Part shown: in pieces, positions 4,173 through 7,422 of the stretch
How positions within the stretch are numbered: the stretch's first letter is position 1
Layout of the letters: each line of letters starts with the position of its first letter
Translations under genes and position numbers: made by a program
Assembly: GCF_001592225.1 (NCBI RefSeq)
Contig: NZ_BCWN01000025.1
Coordinates: 1 to 51,071 of the forward strand
Source of the DNA: Castellaniella caeni NBRC 101664
GTDB lineage: Bacteria; Pseudomonadota; Gammaproteobacteria; Burkholderiales; Burkholderiaceae_B
Direction: 5' to 3'
Length of the DNA: 51,071 bases
Notes under the pieces: generated by a model
The model's input: the letters and a program-made list of their open reading frames with translations, nothing else
Told to the model about the DNA's origin: nothing
The model's database searches: none

Positions 4173-4214
4173 ACGCCGCCAGCAGCCCGCCCCCCGCTTG
4201 CGACAGCGCTGCGC

Positions 4215-4294: not shown

Positions 4295-4308
4295 TTAACC
4301 CAGATCAA
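4295..4308. promoter_or_regulatory. FNR/ANR-type box upstream of nrdD
   Basis: TTAAC-CCAG-ATCAA matches the FNR consensus TTGAT-N4-ATCAA at 8 of 10 positions. It lies about 100 bp before the nrdD start, suited to a class II activator position for a promoter overlapping the NrdR boxes. Anaerobic activation of nrdD by FNR-type regulators is well known in other bacteria; here it is inferred from the site. Confidence 0.55.
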
Positions 4309-4341: not shown

Positions 4342-4357
4342 ACACTATATATTGTGT
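4342..4357. promoter_or_regulatory. NrdR box 1
   Basis: ACACTATATATTGTGT is a full match to the 16-bp NrdR palindrome (consensus acaCwAtATaTwGtgt), the operator of the zinc-finger/ATP-cone repressor of ribonucleotide reductase genes. It is AT-rich and probably overlaps the -10 region. It pairs with box 2, 31 bp downstream. Confidence 0.85.
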
Positions 4358-4372
4358 TTATGATTCATCGAA

Positions 4373-4388
4373 ACACAACATATAGAGA
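4373..4388. promoter_or_regulatory. NrdR box 2
   Basis: ACACAACATATAGAGA is a weaker NrdR box, exactly 31 bp (about three helical turns) from box 1 and ending 7 bp before the nrdD ATG. Paired boxes about 31-32 bp apart are the known hallmark of NrdR-regulated nrd promoters. The spacing supports the call although the right half-site is degenerate. Confidence 0.75.
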
Positions 4389-4395
4389 ATCCAGC

Positions 4396-6225
4396 ATGCA
4401 CTCACTTGCCACCGCAACCGCTGCCGCGATCCCCGATACGGCCACAGGCATCCCTACCCTTCCAGCCGTATACGCAGCCCCGCGCACTGGCTCGCAGGCC
4501 GAATCCCGCCCCATCCCGCAGGTGGACGTGATCCGCTCCATCGACGAATACCTGCAGCAGCAAGACTGGCGCGTCAACGCCAACGCCAACCAGGGTTATT
4601 CGCTGGGCGGGCTCATCCTGAACACCTCGGGCAAGATGATTGCCAACTACTGGCTCAGTCATGTCTACCCTGAAGCCATCGGCCAGGCCCACCGCCAGGG
4701 CGACCTGCACATCCACGACCTGGACATGCTCTCGGGCTATTGCGCGGGCTGGTCGCTGCGCACCCTGCTCACCGAAGGCCTGAACGGCGTGCCTGGCAAG
4801 GTTGAATCCGCCCCGCCCAGGCACATGTCCAGCGCCGTGGGCCAGATCGTCAACTTTCTGGGCACCCTGCAAAACGAATGGGCCGGCGCCCAGGCCTTCA
4901 GCTCGTTCGACACCTATATGGCGCCCTTCATCCGCAAGGACGCCATGTCGTACGCCGACGTGCGTCAATGCATGCAAGAGCTGATCTACAACCTCAACGT
5001 GCCTTCGCGCTGGGGCACGCAGACGCCCTTCACGAATCTCACCTTCGACTGGGTCTGCCCTGAAGACCTGCGCGAACAAGTGCCCGTGATCGCGGGCTGC
5101 GAAATGCCGTTCTCGTACGGCGAACTGCAAACCGAGATGGACTGGATCAACCAGGCCTACATCGAAGTCATGATGGCGGGCGACGCGCGCGGGCGCGCCT
5201 TCACTTTCCCCATCCCCACCTATAACATCACCCCGGACTTCGACTGGCACAGCCCCAATGCCGAGCGTCTGTTCGAGATGACCGCCAAGTACGGCCTGCC
5301 CTACTTCCAGAACTTCATCAACTCAGAGCTCAAGCCCAACATGATCCGCTCGATGTGCTGCCGCCTGCAGCTGGATTTGCGCGAGCTGCTCAAGCGCGGC
5401 AACGGTCTGTTCGGCTCGGCTGAACAGACCGGGTCGCTGGGGGTGGTGACCATCAACTGCGCCCGACTGGGCTACCTGCACCGGGGCGACGAAGCCGCCC
5501 TGCTCGCCCGGCTCGACACACTGCTGGCGCTGGGCCGCGACAGCCTCGAAATCAAGCGCCAGGTGATCCAGGGCTACATGGACAACGGCCTGTTCCCCTA
5601 CACCCGCCGCTACCTGGGCACCTTGCGCAACCACTTCTCCACCCTGGGGGTGAACGGCATCAACGAAATGATCCGCAACTTCACCGCCGACGCGCACGAC
5701 CTCACCAGCCCCTGGGGCCACGCCTTTGCCGTGCGCCTGCTGGATCACGTGCGTGCCCGCATGGTCGAATTTCAAGAAGCCACCGGCCACCTGTACAACC
5801 TCGAAGCCACGCCCGCCGAAGGCACTACCTATCGCTTCGCCAAGGAAGACCGCGCCCGCTGGCCCGACATCCTGCAGGCGGGCACGGCAGACATGCCCTA
5901 CTACACCAACTCGTCGCAGCTGCCCGTGGGTTTTACCGACGACCCTTTCGAAGCGCTCGAACGACAAGACGAACTGCAGCGCAAATACACCGGGGGCACC
6001 GTGCTGCACCTGTACATGACCGAGCCCTTGTCCAGTGCCGACGCCTGCCGCACCCTGGTGCGCCGCACGCTGGGCCGCTTCTCGCTGCCCTACATCACCA
6101 TCACCCCAACGTTTTCCATCTGCCCCAAGCACGGCTATCTGCCCGGGCGCCACGATTTCTGCCCGCACTGCGACGACGACCTCATCGCCTGCAAGCGTGC
6201 CCAGGCGCTTTCGGACGTCCACTGA
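4396..6225 (+). CDS. nrdD: Class III (anaerobic) ribonucleotide reductase catalytic polypeptide, lacking its glycyl-radical domain
   Basis: A 609-aa protein starting at 4396, downstream of two NrdR boxes. It reduces ribonucleoside triphosphates in the absence of O2. Visible blocks are HIHDLDMLSGYCAGW (upper-face Cys about 116), RSMCCRLQLD (active-site cysteines 321-322), the FSTLGVNGINEM finger region, and a C-terminal zinc site CPKHGYLPGRHDFCPHC (about 576-592). Family members normally continue from this zinc site into the glycyl-radical loop in the same chain. Here the protein stops 17 residues later with LSDVH, and the radical loop is encoded by the next cistron. The N-terminal ATP-cone seen in many NrdDs is also missing. 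The MCC motif may indicate a redoxin-dependent rather than formate-dependent subtype (inference). Confidence 0.9.
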   Translation: MHSLATATAAAIPDTATGIPTLPAVYAAPRTGSQAESRPIPQVDVIRSIDEYLQQQDWRVNANANQGYSLGGLILNTSGKMIANYWLSHVYPEAIGQAHRQGDLHIHDLDMLSGYCAGWSLRTLLTEGLNGVPGKVESAPPRHMSSAVGQIVNFLGTLQNEWAGAQAFSSFDTYMAPFIRKDAMSYADVRQCMQELIYNLNVPSRWGTQTPFTNLTFDWVCPEDLREQVPVIAGCEMPFSYGELQTEMDWINQAYIEVMMAGDARGRAFTFPIPTYNITPDFDWHSPNAERLFEMTAKYGLPYFQNFINSELKPNMIRSMCCRLQLDLRELLKRGNGLFGSAEQTGSLGVVTINCARLGYLHRGDEAALLARLDTLLALGRDSLEIKRQVIQGYMDNGLFPYTRRYLGTLRNHFSTLGVNGINEMIRNFTADAHDLTSPWGHAFAVRLLDHVRARMVEFQEATGHLYNLEATPAEGTTYRFAKEDRARWPDILQAGTADMPYYTNSSQLPVGFTDDPFEALERQDELQRKYTGGTVLHLYMTEPLSSADACRTLVRRTLGRFSLPYITITPTFSICPKHGYLPGRHDFCPHCDDDLIACKRAQALSDVH

Positions 6226-6230
6226 TACCT

Positions 6231-6275
6231 GGGCTGCCGGGCTCCGGTCTCCGAAAGTTCAACTTGCGGCAGCCC
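6231..6275 (+). repeat. Inverted repeat between nrdD core and glycyl-radical cistron
   Basis: GGGCTGCCG (6231-6239) and CGGCAGCCC (6267-6275) form a perfect 9-bp stem with a 27-nt loop, 5 bp after the nrdD stop. There is no T-run, so an mRNA processing, stability or partial-attenuation hairpin is more likely than a full terminator. Confidence 0.5.
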
Positions 6276-6382
6276 GATCCAGTCCTTGGCAAGGATGCAT
6301 CAACGATGCATCAACGCCGCACCAAGGCGCCCAAGCCACGGCCAAGCAGCACTTTCCCTCAACGCCTCAACAGGAGTTCATC

Positions 6383-6565
6383 ATGACCAACACCACCATC
6401 ACCCTGCACGACAGCGAACGCCAAGCGTGCGAAATCTGGACGCGCGTCATGGGCTATCACCGCCCGGTATCGTCCTTCAACACAGGCAAGAAGGGCGAAT
6501 TCCACGAACGCAAATTCTTCGTCGAACGCCACAGCGGCCAGGCGCCCGCTGCGCACACCGCCTGA
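6383..6565 (+). CDS. Stand-alone glycyl-radical domain of class III ribonucleotide reductase
   Basis: A 60-aa ORF with its own ATG and an AGGAG ribosome site 7 bp upstream. Almost the whole protein is the terminal block of NrdD: CEIWTRVMGYHRPVSSFN, with the radical glycine at residue 24 in RVMGY, then TGKKGEFHERKFF. In usual NrdDs this sequence follows the zinc site on the same chain. Here 157 nt, its own Met and its own ribosome site intervene, and the reading frame differs. It presumably docks into the NrdD core after NrdG forms the Gly radical, as the autonomous cofactor GrcA/YfiD does for pyruvate formate-lyase. Whether it forms a stable subunit is unknown. The conserved motif and clean start argue against a pseudogene. 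Confidence 0.85.
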   Translation: MTNTTITLHDSERQACEIWTRVMGYHRPVSSFNTGKKGEFHERKFFVERHSGQAPAAHTA

Positions 6566-6711: not shown

Positions 6712-7422
6712 ATGCCCCAGCACACCCTCAAAGTAGGCGGCCTCGTCCCCTTCACCGCCACCGACTACCCGGGCCTGCTGGCCGCCGTCGTCTTCGTGCA
6801 AGGCTGCCCCTGGCGCTGCGGCTACTGCCACAACCCGCACCTGCAGCCGCGCACCGCCGACAGCCCCATGCCCTGGGGCGACGTCCACGCATTTCTGCAG
6901 CGCCGGGTGGGGCTCATCGACGGTGTTGTCTTCAGCGGCGGCGAGCCCACCATGGATCCGGGCCTGCCCCACGCCATCAAACAAGCCAAGGCACTGGGCT
7001 ACCGCATCGGCCTGCACACCGGCGGCACGCACCCGCGCCGCCTGGCGCAAGTGCTGCCCGACATCGACTGGGTGGGCCTGGACATCAAGGCCCATTTCGC
7101 CGATTACGAACGGGTCACCCAGGTGGCCCACAGCGGCAAACCCGCGCGCGAAAGCCTGCAGGCGGTGCTGGACAGCGGCGTGGCCTTCGAGTGCCGCACC
7201 ACGGCGCACCCCGACCTGATCAGCGCCACCGCGCTGATCAGCCTGGGCCAGGCGCTGGCCGACGCGGGCGTACAGCATTATGCCGTGCAGGTCTTCCGCC
7301 CCCAGGGCTGCACCGATGACACCCTGAACGCGCACGGCCAGTCGCTGCGCGAATGGCCTGGTGCAACGACCAGCGACGCGCTGGCCGCTATGTTTCCGTC
7401 ATTTACGCTTCGACGTGCGTAG
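6712..7422 (+). CDS. nrdG: Anaerobic ribonucleotide reductase activating protein (radical SAM)
   Basis: A 236-aa protein with start ATG at 6712. The frame is open upstream, but homologous sequence begins at LKVGGLVPFTATDYPG. It binds a 4Fe-4S cluster through CPWRCGYC (residues 33-40, CxxxCxxC) and uses S-adenosylmethionine to generate the glycyl radical. FSGGEPTMD is the SAM-binding GGE motif. This is the longer NrdG form found in proteobacteria with P. aeruginosa-like NrdD. Here its target glycine sits on the separate 60-aa protein encoded just upstream. It ends 50 bp from the convergent sox operon. Confidence 0.93.
   Translation: MPQHTLKVGGLVPFTATDYPGLLAAVVFVQGCPWRCGYCHNPHLQPRTADSPMPWGDVHAFLQRRVGLIDGVVFSGGEPTMDPGLPHAIKQAKALGYRIGLHTGGTHPRRLAQVLPDIDWVGLDIKAHFADYERVTQVAHSGKPARESLQAVLDSGVAFECRTTAHPDLISATALISLGQALADAGVQHYAVQVFRPQGCTDDTLNAHGQSLREWPGATTSDALAAMFPSFTLRRA

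Follow-up and report, generated by a model that had tools for sequence, protein, structure and literature searches.

We describe here a class III ribonucleotide reductase (RNR) of Castellaniella caeni NBRC 101664 that, judged from its sequence, very probably consists of two subunits: a core with the barrel, the active-site cysteines and the zinc site, and a separately translated 60-aa chain that would carry the glycyl radical made by NrdG. The locus lies in contig NZ_BCWN01000025.1, positions 1 to 51,071 of which were analysed and are called the window below. Its features are as follows:

4342..4357, + strand: NrdR box, exact match to ACACWATATATWGTGT
4373-4388: weaker second NrdR box, three mismatches
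4396..6225, + strand: nrdD core (catalytic chain), 609 aa, ATG at 4396, stop ending at 6225; no glycyl-radical loop and no ATP-cone match
4741..4743, + strand: C116, invariant core cysteine, C in 150/150 rows
5356..5361, + strand: C321-C322 of the core, CCR motif, 150/150 rows
6121..6171, + strand: zinc site C576, H579, C589 and C592 of the core, each in 150/150 rows; putative ligands by comparison with T. maritima NrdD
6372..6376, + strand: AGGAG ribosome-binding site of the small gene, six bases 5' of its ATG
6383..6565, + strand: stand-alone glycyl-radical protein (small gene), 60 aa, frame differing from that of the core
6452..6454, + strand: Gly24 of the small protein, presumed radical glycine (WTRVMGY) by homology to known NrdD
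6712..7422, + strand: nrdG, radical-SAM activase, TIGR02495 NrdG2, 183.8 bits (cut-off 131.15)

The reading frame of the core is open from a TTG at 4198, and the chain of 609 aa results from the ATG at 4396. A preliminary description of this DNA had placed the end of the core 17 residues past the zinc site, and the radical loop 157 nt further on, in another frame, within a 60-aa ORF with its own ATG and AGGAG site; coordinates and translation bear this out, since the last zinc cysteine is C592 of 609 and the gap between the core stop and the small-gene ATG spans 6226-6382. As the NrdR box consensus we take ACACWATATATWGTGT; the pattern gives three matches in the window (two of them overlapping) against a mean of 0.04 expected in shuffles. 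An FNR/Dnr box candidate at 4295-4308, with two mismatches, was dropped, as the window contains 27 such matches where 9.8 are expected.

The core clearly belongs to the NrdD barrel family. It reaches 1038 bits against NF006126/PRK08270 (cut-off 548), 447 bits against TIGR02487 (cut-off 326) and 569 bits against PF13597 (cut-off 26.2), the last over columns 2-532 of 562, and the small protein matches columns 531-562 of the same PF13597 profile with 33.1 bits (cut-off 26.2) and an E-value of 3.4e-8. The core also possesses the active-site cysteines and zinc ligands of a class III RNR, and an NrdG activase adjoins it; the radical glycine, which in a class III RNR is expected in the same chain, lies on the separate ORF, at a position (Gly24) that we take from known NrdD. 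In the residue alignment, composed of the first 150 of the split-type rows, C355 of the core is likewise kept in 150/150 rows. We infer the roles of the active-site cysteines from comparison with T. maritima NrdD, which carries an SCCR motif according to the accessible text of PMC4493059. The match of the core to NF006126 starts at profile position 97 (window 4396-4513); many relatives match from position 3 or 4. With a match from position 97 only, the ATP-cone appears to be missing, so that dATP may not control the overall activity of this enzyme.

The preliminary description had named a second intact nrdD in the genome as a reason to abandon its reading. Searched with the PF13597 and TIGR02487 profiles, the 3.28 Mb assembly (60 contigs, 99.95% complete) yielded no such gene, the core and the small piece being the only matches. 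Since the sole other RNR found in the genome is of class I, with one large and one small subunit, the split NrdD looks like its only O2-independent RNR. The class I NrdA of this genome (locus L337, 1322-3937, contig C9) has an apparent insert of some 55 residues with a GTGAIETRRGMVYLEDLVAGD motif reminiscent of Hint/intein modules.

The same layout is widespread in the Burkholderiales. PF13597 was matched in 24 of the 61 genomes of a search among relatives, the window's genome included, and in 126 of 399 genomes of the order. Among 113 Burkholderiales genomes with the small piece in the fetched locus, 106 are split, six are fused and one (G189) is unclear, with a contig end between core and small piece. 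Left out of the 113 were two other NrdD types that end in loops of their own (L003, L033, L034, L045, L046 and L048; L024, L026 and L138), loci with no small piece in the stretch (L005, L047, L121, L023 and L025), and partial or other-type matches in unfetched genomes, e.g., G297, G355 and G381; G043 and G008 enter the count via other loci. Hence, the two-gene layout is a clade trait, common in related bacteria, as the preliminary description had supposed; the search it proposed, for related cores that end at the zinc site and are accompanied by an ORF of about 60 aa, returns these 106 of 113 genomes. All six fused genomes belong to one genus (g65), which indicates that the split is not required for function. 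In the split genomes, the distance from the core stop to the small-gene start ranges from -29 to 376 nt (104/106; the exceptions are G100, with 2,322 nt, and G043, where the genes are unlinked), an ATG lies at most 32 codons from the loop in 104/106, and a ribosome site of five or more bases precedes it in 95/106. Moreover, relative to the core, the small ORF occupies the three frames in a near-even share (34/40/32; chi-square about 1).

These data bear on two readings in which the two ORFs would be parts of one chain. In the window, the frame of the small ORF has no stop upstream as far as 6035 and so overlaps the last part of the core, which would suit a sequencing error or a decayed nrdD, i.e., a frame change in this assembly that hides a single chain. 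We consider this practically out of the question, given that the same split recurs in 106/113 genomes and in the complete plasmid record pHG1 of Cupriavidus necator, and that unlinked copies of the small gene exist. A frame error had also been named in the preliminary description as a possible undoing of its reading; the occurrence of the small ORF in all three frames among the 106 split genomes argues against it, and equally against a programmed frameshift or stop readthrough that would yield a fused NrdD. The latter gains something from relatives in which both parts share one frame with a single stop between them, but the varying gaps, the ATG and ribosome site of the small gene's own and, again, the unlinked copies make it highly improbable. 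Taken with the clade-wide split, these starts and ribosome sites support the earlier suggestion that NrdD is encoded by two genes, one for a small glycyl-radical protein.

A chance ORF was rejected as an explanation of the small gene by its PF13597 match, by pN/pS and by a shuffle test, in which a degenerate DNA pattern for WTRVMGYHR, present once in the window (6437-6462), occurred 0 times in 100 shuffles. Over 34 codons, pN/pS was 0.25 in the viral set (64 distinct copies) and 0.26 in the cellular one (60 copies sampled from 204 distinct ones). All 64 viral copies agree at the loop residues W, T, R, V, M, G, Y, R, P and N, G, K, E, R, and Gly24 is fixed in all copies compared for pN/pS; this conservation is partly built in, because parts of the same motif served to find and select the copies. 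As for the history of the split, a careful tree of 49 rows, the bootstrap of which had not settled, groups the fused g65 rows with split rows in one clade (98/87) and implies several state changes; in a quick tree, the fused rows are likewise nested among split rows. A constrained tree that keeps the split rows together is 109 log units higher than the quick tree and was not rejected (p-AU 0.972). Fused relatives inside split clades are thus suggested, and switching between the split and fused states is likely, its direction and number not being fixed by the trees.

In a Sutterella-like family (f19), the small gene is not always found beside its core. Matches occur in 37 of its 61 genomes, and 35 genomes hold a split-type core: the small gene adjoins it in 32, and in three (G842, G853 and G871) the sole small gene found lies elsewhere. 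In G871 (three contigs, 99% complete), core and small gene share a contig but are separated by 1.3 Mb and lie on opposite strands. The fetched 9 kb core stretches of all three genomes show core and nrdG side by side and contain no small gene; in G842 and G853 the neighbours of the lone small gene are ordinary genes (helicase, efflux protein, M20 peptidase, SbcD-like protein). The three genomes also hold a fused NrdD of another type, the loop of which, as in L026 of G054, is unlike the small protein. In G043, the small gene lies beside nrdG, 9.5 kb from the core. Since the sole small gene is unlinked in three genomes, the small protein should act in trans, as far as gene arrangement can tell. 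A further unlinked copy is present in 11 of the 32 f19 genomes with an adjoining small gene (11/35 with a split-type core); ten were seen in fetched loci, and the eleventh (G885) may be an assembly duplicate. At four loci from f19 genomes and a Sutterella MAG (L134, L212, L372 and L371), a second or sole small gene lies near an M20 peptidase gene and is a candidate spare-part gene.

A split NrdD is also found in relatives among the alpha- and gammaproteobacteria, the Campylobacterota and the Omnitrophota. A scan of named genomes gave at least 577 relatives; in the best 80 of these at least 577 loci, ranked by likeness to the window, the small piece and the core sequence are in different ORFs in 78, the small gene stands alone in two and none is fused. 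Some of the 78 cores are partial or interrupted (e.g., L206, L210, L219, L232, L241 and L254), and among the best 80 are Omnitrophota as well as single MAGs titled Geobacteraceae and Verrucomicrobiota. The small protein has matches (E up to 1) in 29 of the 72,556 records of a plasmid collection; among the records inspected, the annotation shows a split for C. necator, Paracoccus, Bradyrhizobium, Shinella and Sulfuricurvum, and a single gene for Acidiphilium, Actinomyces and Geoalkalibacter. In a phylum sample, 16 of 398 genomes, the window's included, exceed the PRK08270 cut-off; three of their loci are fused (L149, L153 and L154), one (L140) lacks a small piece within the stretch, and the remaining 12 have it as a separate ORF. 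Locus L150, from a 0.9 Mb genome, holds a highly divergent split NrdD (CEVFSRSMGFIRP) whose match contains two in-frame TAA codons. The NrdD of P. aeruginosa is about 675 aa long, a length that would fit a split. C. necator H16 shows the same split on pHG1, where the small gene, H16_RS32675, is labelled nrdD and the core merely ribonucleoside triphosphate reductase; according to the accessible text of PMC2864759, which cites Siedow 1999, NrdDG was reported to be essential for complete denitrification in this strain. In the accessible portions of the openly licensed literature, we found no description of a split NrdD or of phage copies; Siedow 1999, on the H16 enzyme, may discuss the split.

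The small gene is also found in viral sequences. A scan of IMG/VR, the records of which may be fragments or wrongly called viral, gave 139 relatives, and the best 80 of these 139 were fetched with at most 5 kb on each side of the small gene; the small ORF is present in 80/80 stretches, and no core or nrdG was found in any of the 80. Fifty of the 80 were searched as whole viral records (12.5 to 212 kb) with PF13597: each has a single match, the small piece (49 over the cut-off), and no core was found. Such stand-alone small genes in viral stretches in which no core or nrdG was found are new here. Among 20 neighbours at seven viral loci, four have no PHROG match, and the others include integrase, holin, tail and replication families. 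In L298 and L318 the viral small gene adjoins a replication-initiator gene, and in L298 also a helicase gene, neighbours consistent with a function in supplying DNA precursors. Over 5,140 and 3,508 bases, two viral contigs show full identity to segments of G365 and G845, genomes that each carry a split NrdD; an extra small gene lies by lysis genes in G365 and in G278, in the latter with an integrase also nearby, and the second copy in G289 adjoins an AcaB regulator. On plasmids of Allochromatium vinosum and A. tepidum (L061 and L174), the small gene has no core or nrdG annotated nearby, and a similarity search of the A. vinosum stretch found neither. Neither the unlinked copies nor these copies on phages, plasmids and other mobile elements had been anticipated in the preliminary description. 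For the six small proteins compared, the nearest PHROG is 4132, a family without an assigned function. Among the annotated phages of INPHARED no clear stand-alone small gene was found, which counts against generality: the window query matches two records (E up to 1) and a viral query ten (E up to 10), all below 60% identity, and of these ten, seven are annotated as NrdD-type reductases, one is unannotated and two Gordonia phage records have a hypothetical protein at the match. On balance, we lean slightly towards the view that class III RNR has its radical site on a subunit that is mobile and interchangeable, and that phages, plasmids and conjugative elements carry only this protein of roughly 50 residues, which would plug into the core and NrdG of the host so that dNTP synthesis at low oxygen is raised or restored.

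In core sequence, cysteines, zinc site and NrdG partner, the enzyme resembles NrdD of the PRK08270/NF006126 type, and its nearest solved relatives by sequence are those of T. maritima (4coi) and then P. copri (8p23). In solved NrdD enzymes the radical loop ends the same chain, whereas here it is on a separate gene; residues 616-644 of 4coi match the small-protein profile weakly (E 0.66). P. aeruginosa NrdJab is also a ribonucleotide reductase made of two chains, but it is a B12-dependent class II enzyme split at another domain (PMC4520616 and PMC9669993, accessible text). GrcA/YfiD and T4 Y06I are likewise small, separate glycyl-radical-loop proteins, one of them phage-borne; they repair O2-cut pyruvate formate-lyase, which itself has a loop, whereas the small protein described here has an NrdD-type sequence and a partner devoid of the loop. 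In the accessible text of PMC8683613, such spare-part proteins are proven only for pyruvate formate-lyase, and are speculated to exist for other enzymes. The small protein of the window has no pyruvate formate-lyase-type glycyl-radical sequence: PF13597 is its only Pfam match at E up to 1, its NCBIfam matches are all NrdD, and its best PHROG is again 4132, followed by the NrdD-like 487.

We picture a core that would supply the barrel with its active-site cysteines, together with the zinc site, and a 60-aa chain whose RVMGY loop would enter the barrel bearing the glycyl radical made by NrdG; by known class III RNR chemistry, as given in the accessible text of PMC4493059 and PMC11226230, the loop must sit in the barrel. 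In the simplest reading, NrdG would activate the small chain while it is docked on the core or lies next to it, the radical would pass to a core cysteine and start ribonucleotide reduction, and a free radical chain could replace one cut by O2. We infer docking, installation of the radical on the small chain and swapping of an O2-cut chain alike. In the predicted fold of a tethered relative (input alignment of 17 tethered rows and 23 cores), the small chain (671-727) is not confident, with pLDDT near 80 for 681-690 only, 49 for 691-700 and 32-35 beyond; a Foldseek search with a tethered model of a relative gave class III RNRs in its first 36 rows, which bears on the fold class, not on docking. 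The small protein could alternatively be a mere spare part for an otherwise active enzyme, as GrcA is for pyruvate formate-lyase, and the extra copies in 11/35 split f19 genomes and the viral stretches with the small gene alone would fit this. We regard it as very unlikely: this core lacks a radical loop, and the genome search revealed no intact NrdD, so that the enzyme must depend on the small protein as a working part. Additional copies may serve as spares besides.

As a two-subunit enzyme, a naturally split class III RNR would offer a ready system for testing the installation and exchange of a radical on a free small protein. The annotation of such loci is affected as well, as seen in the names of the small gene and the core in the H16 record. 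Moreover, the split NrdD gives the phage family phrog_4132 a likely function, and suggests that phages may feed anaerobic DNA synthesis through a one-gene part.
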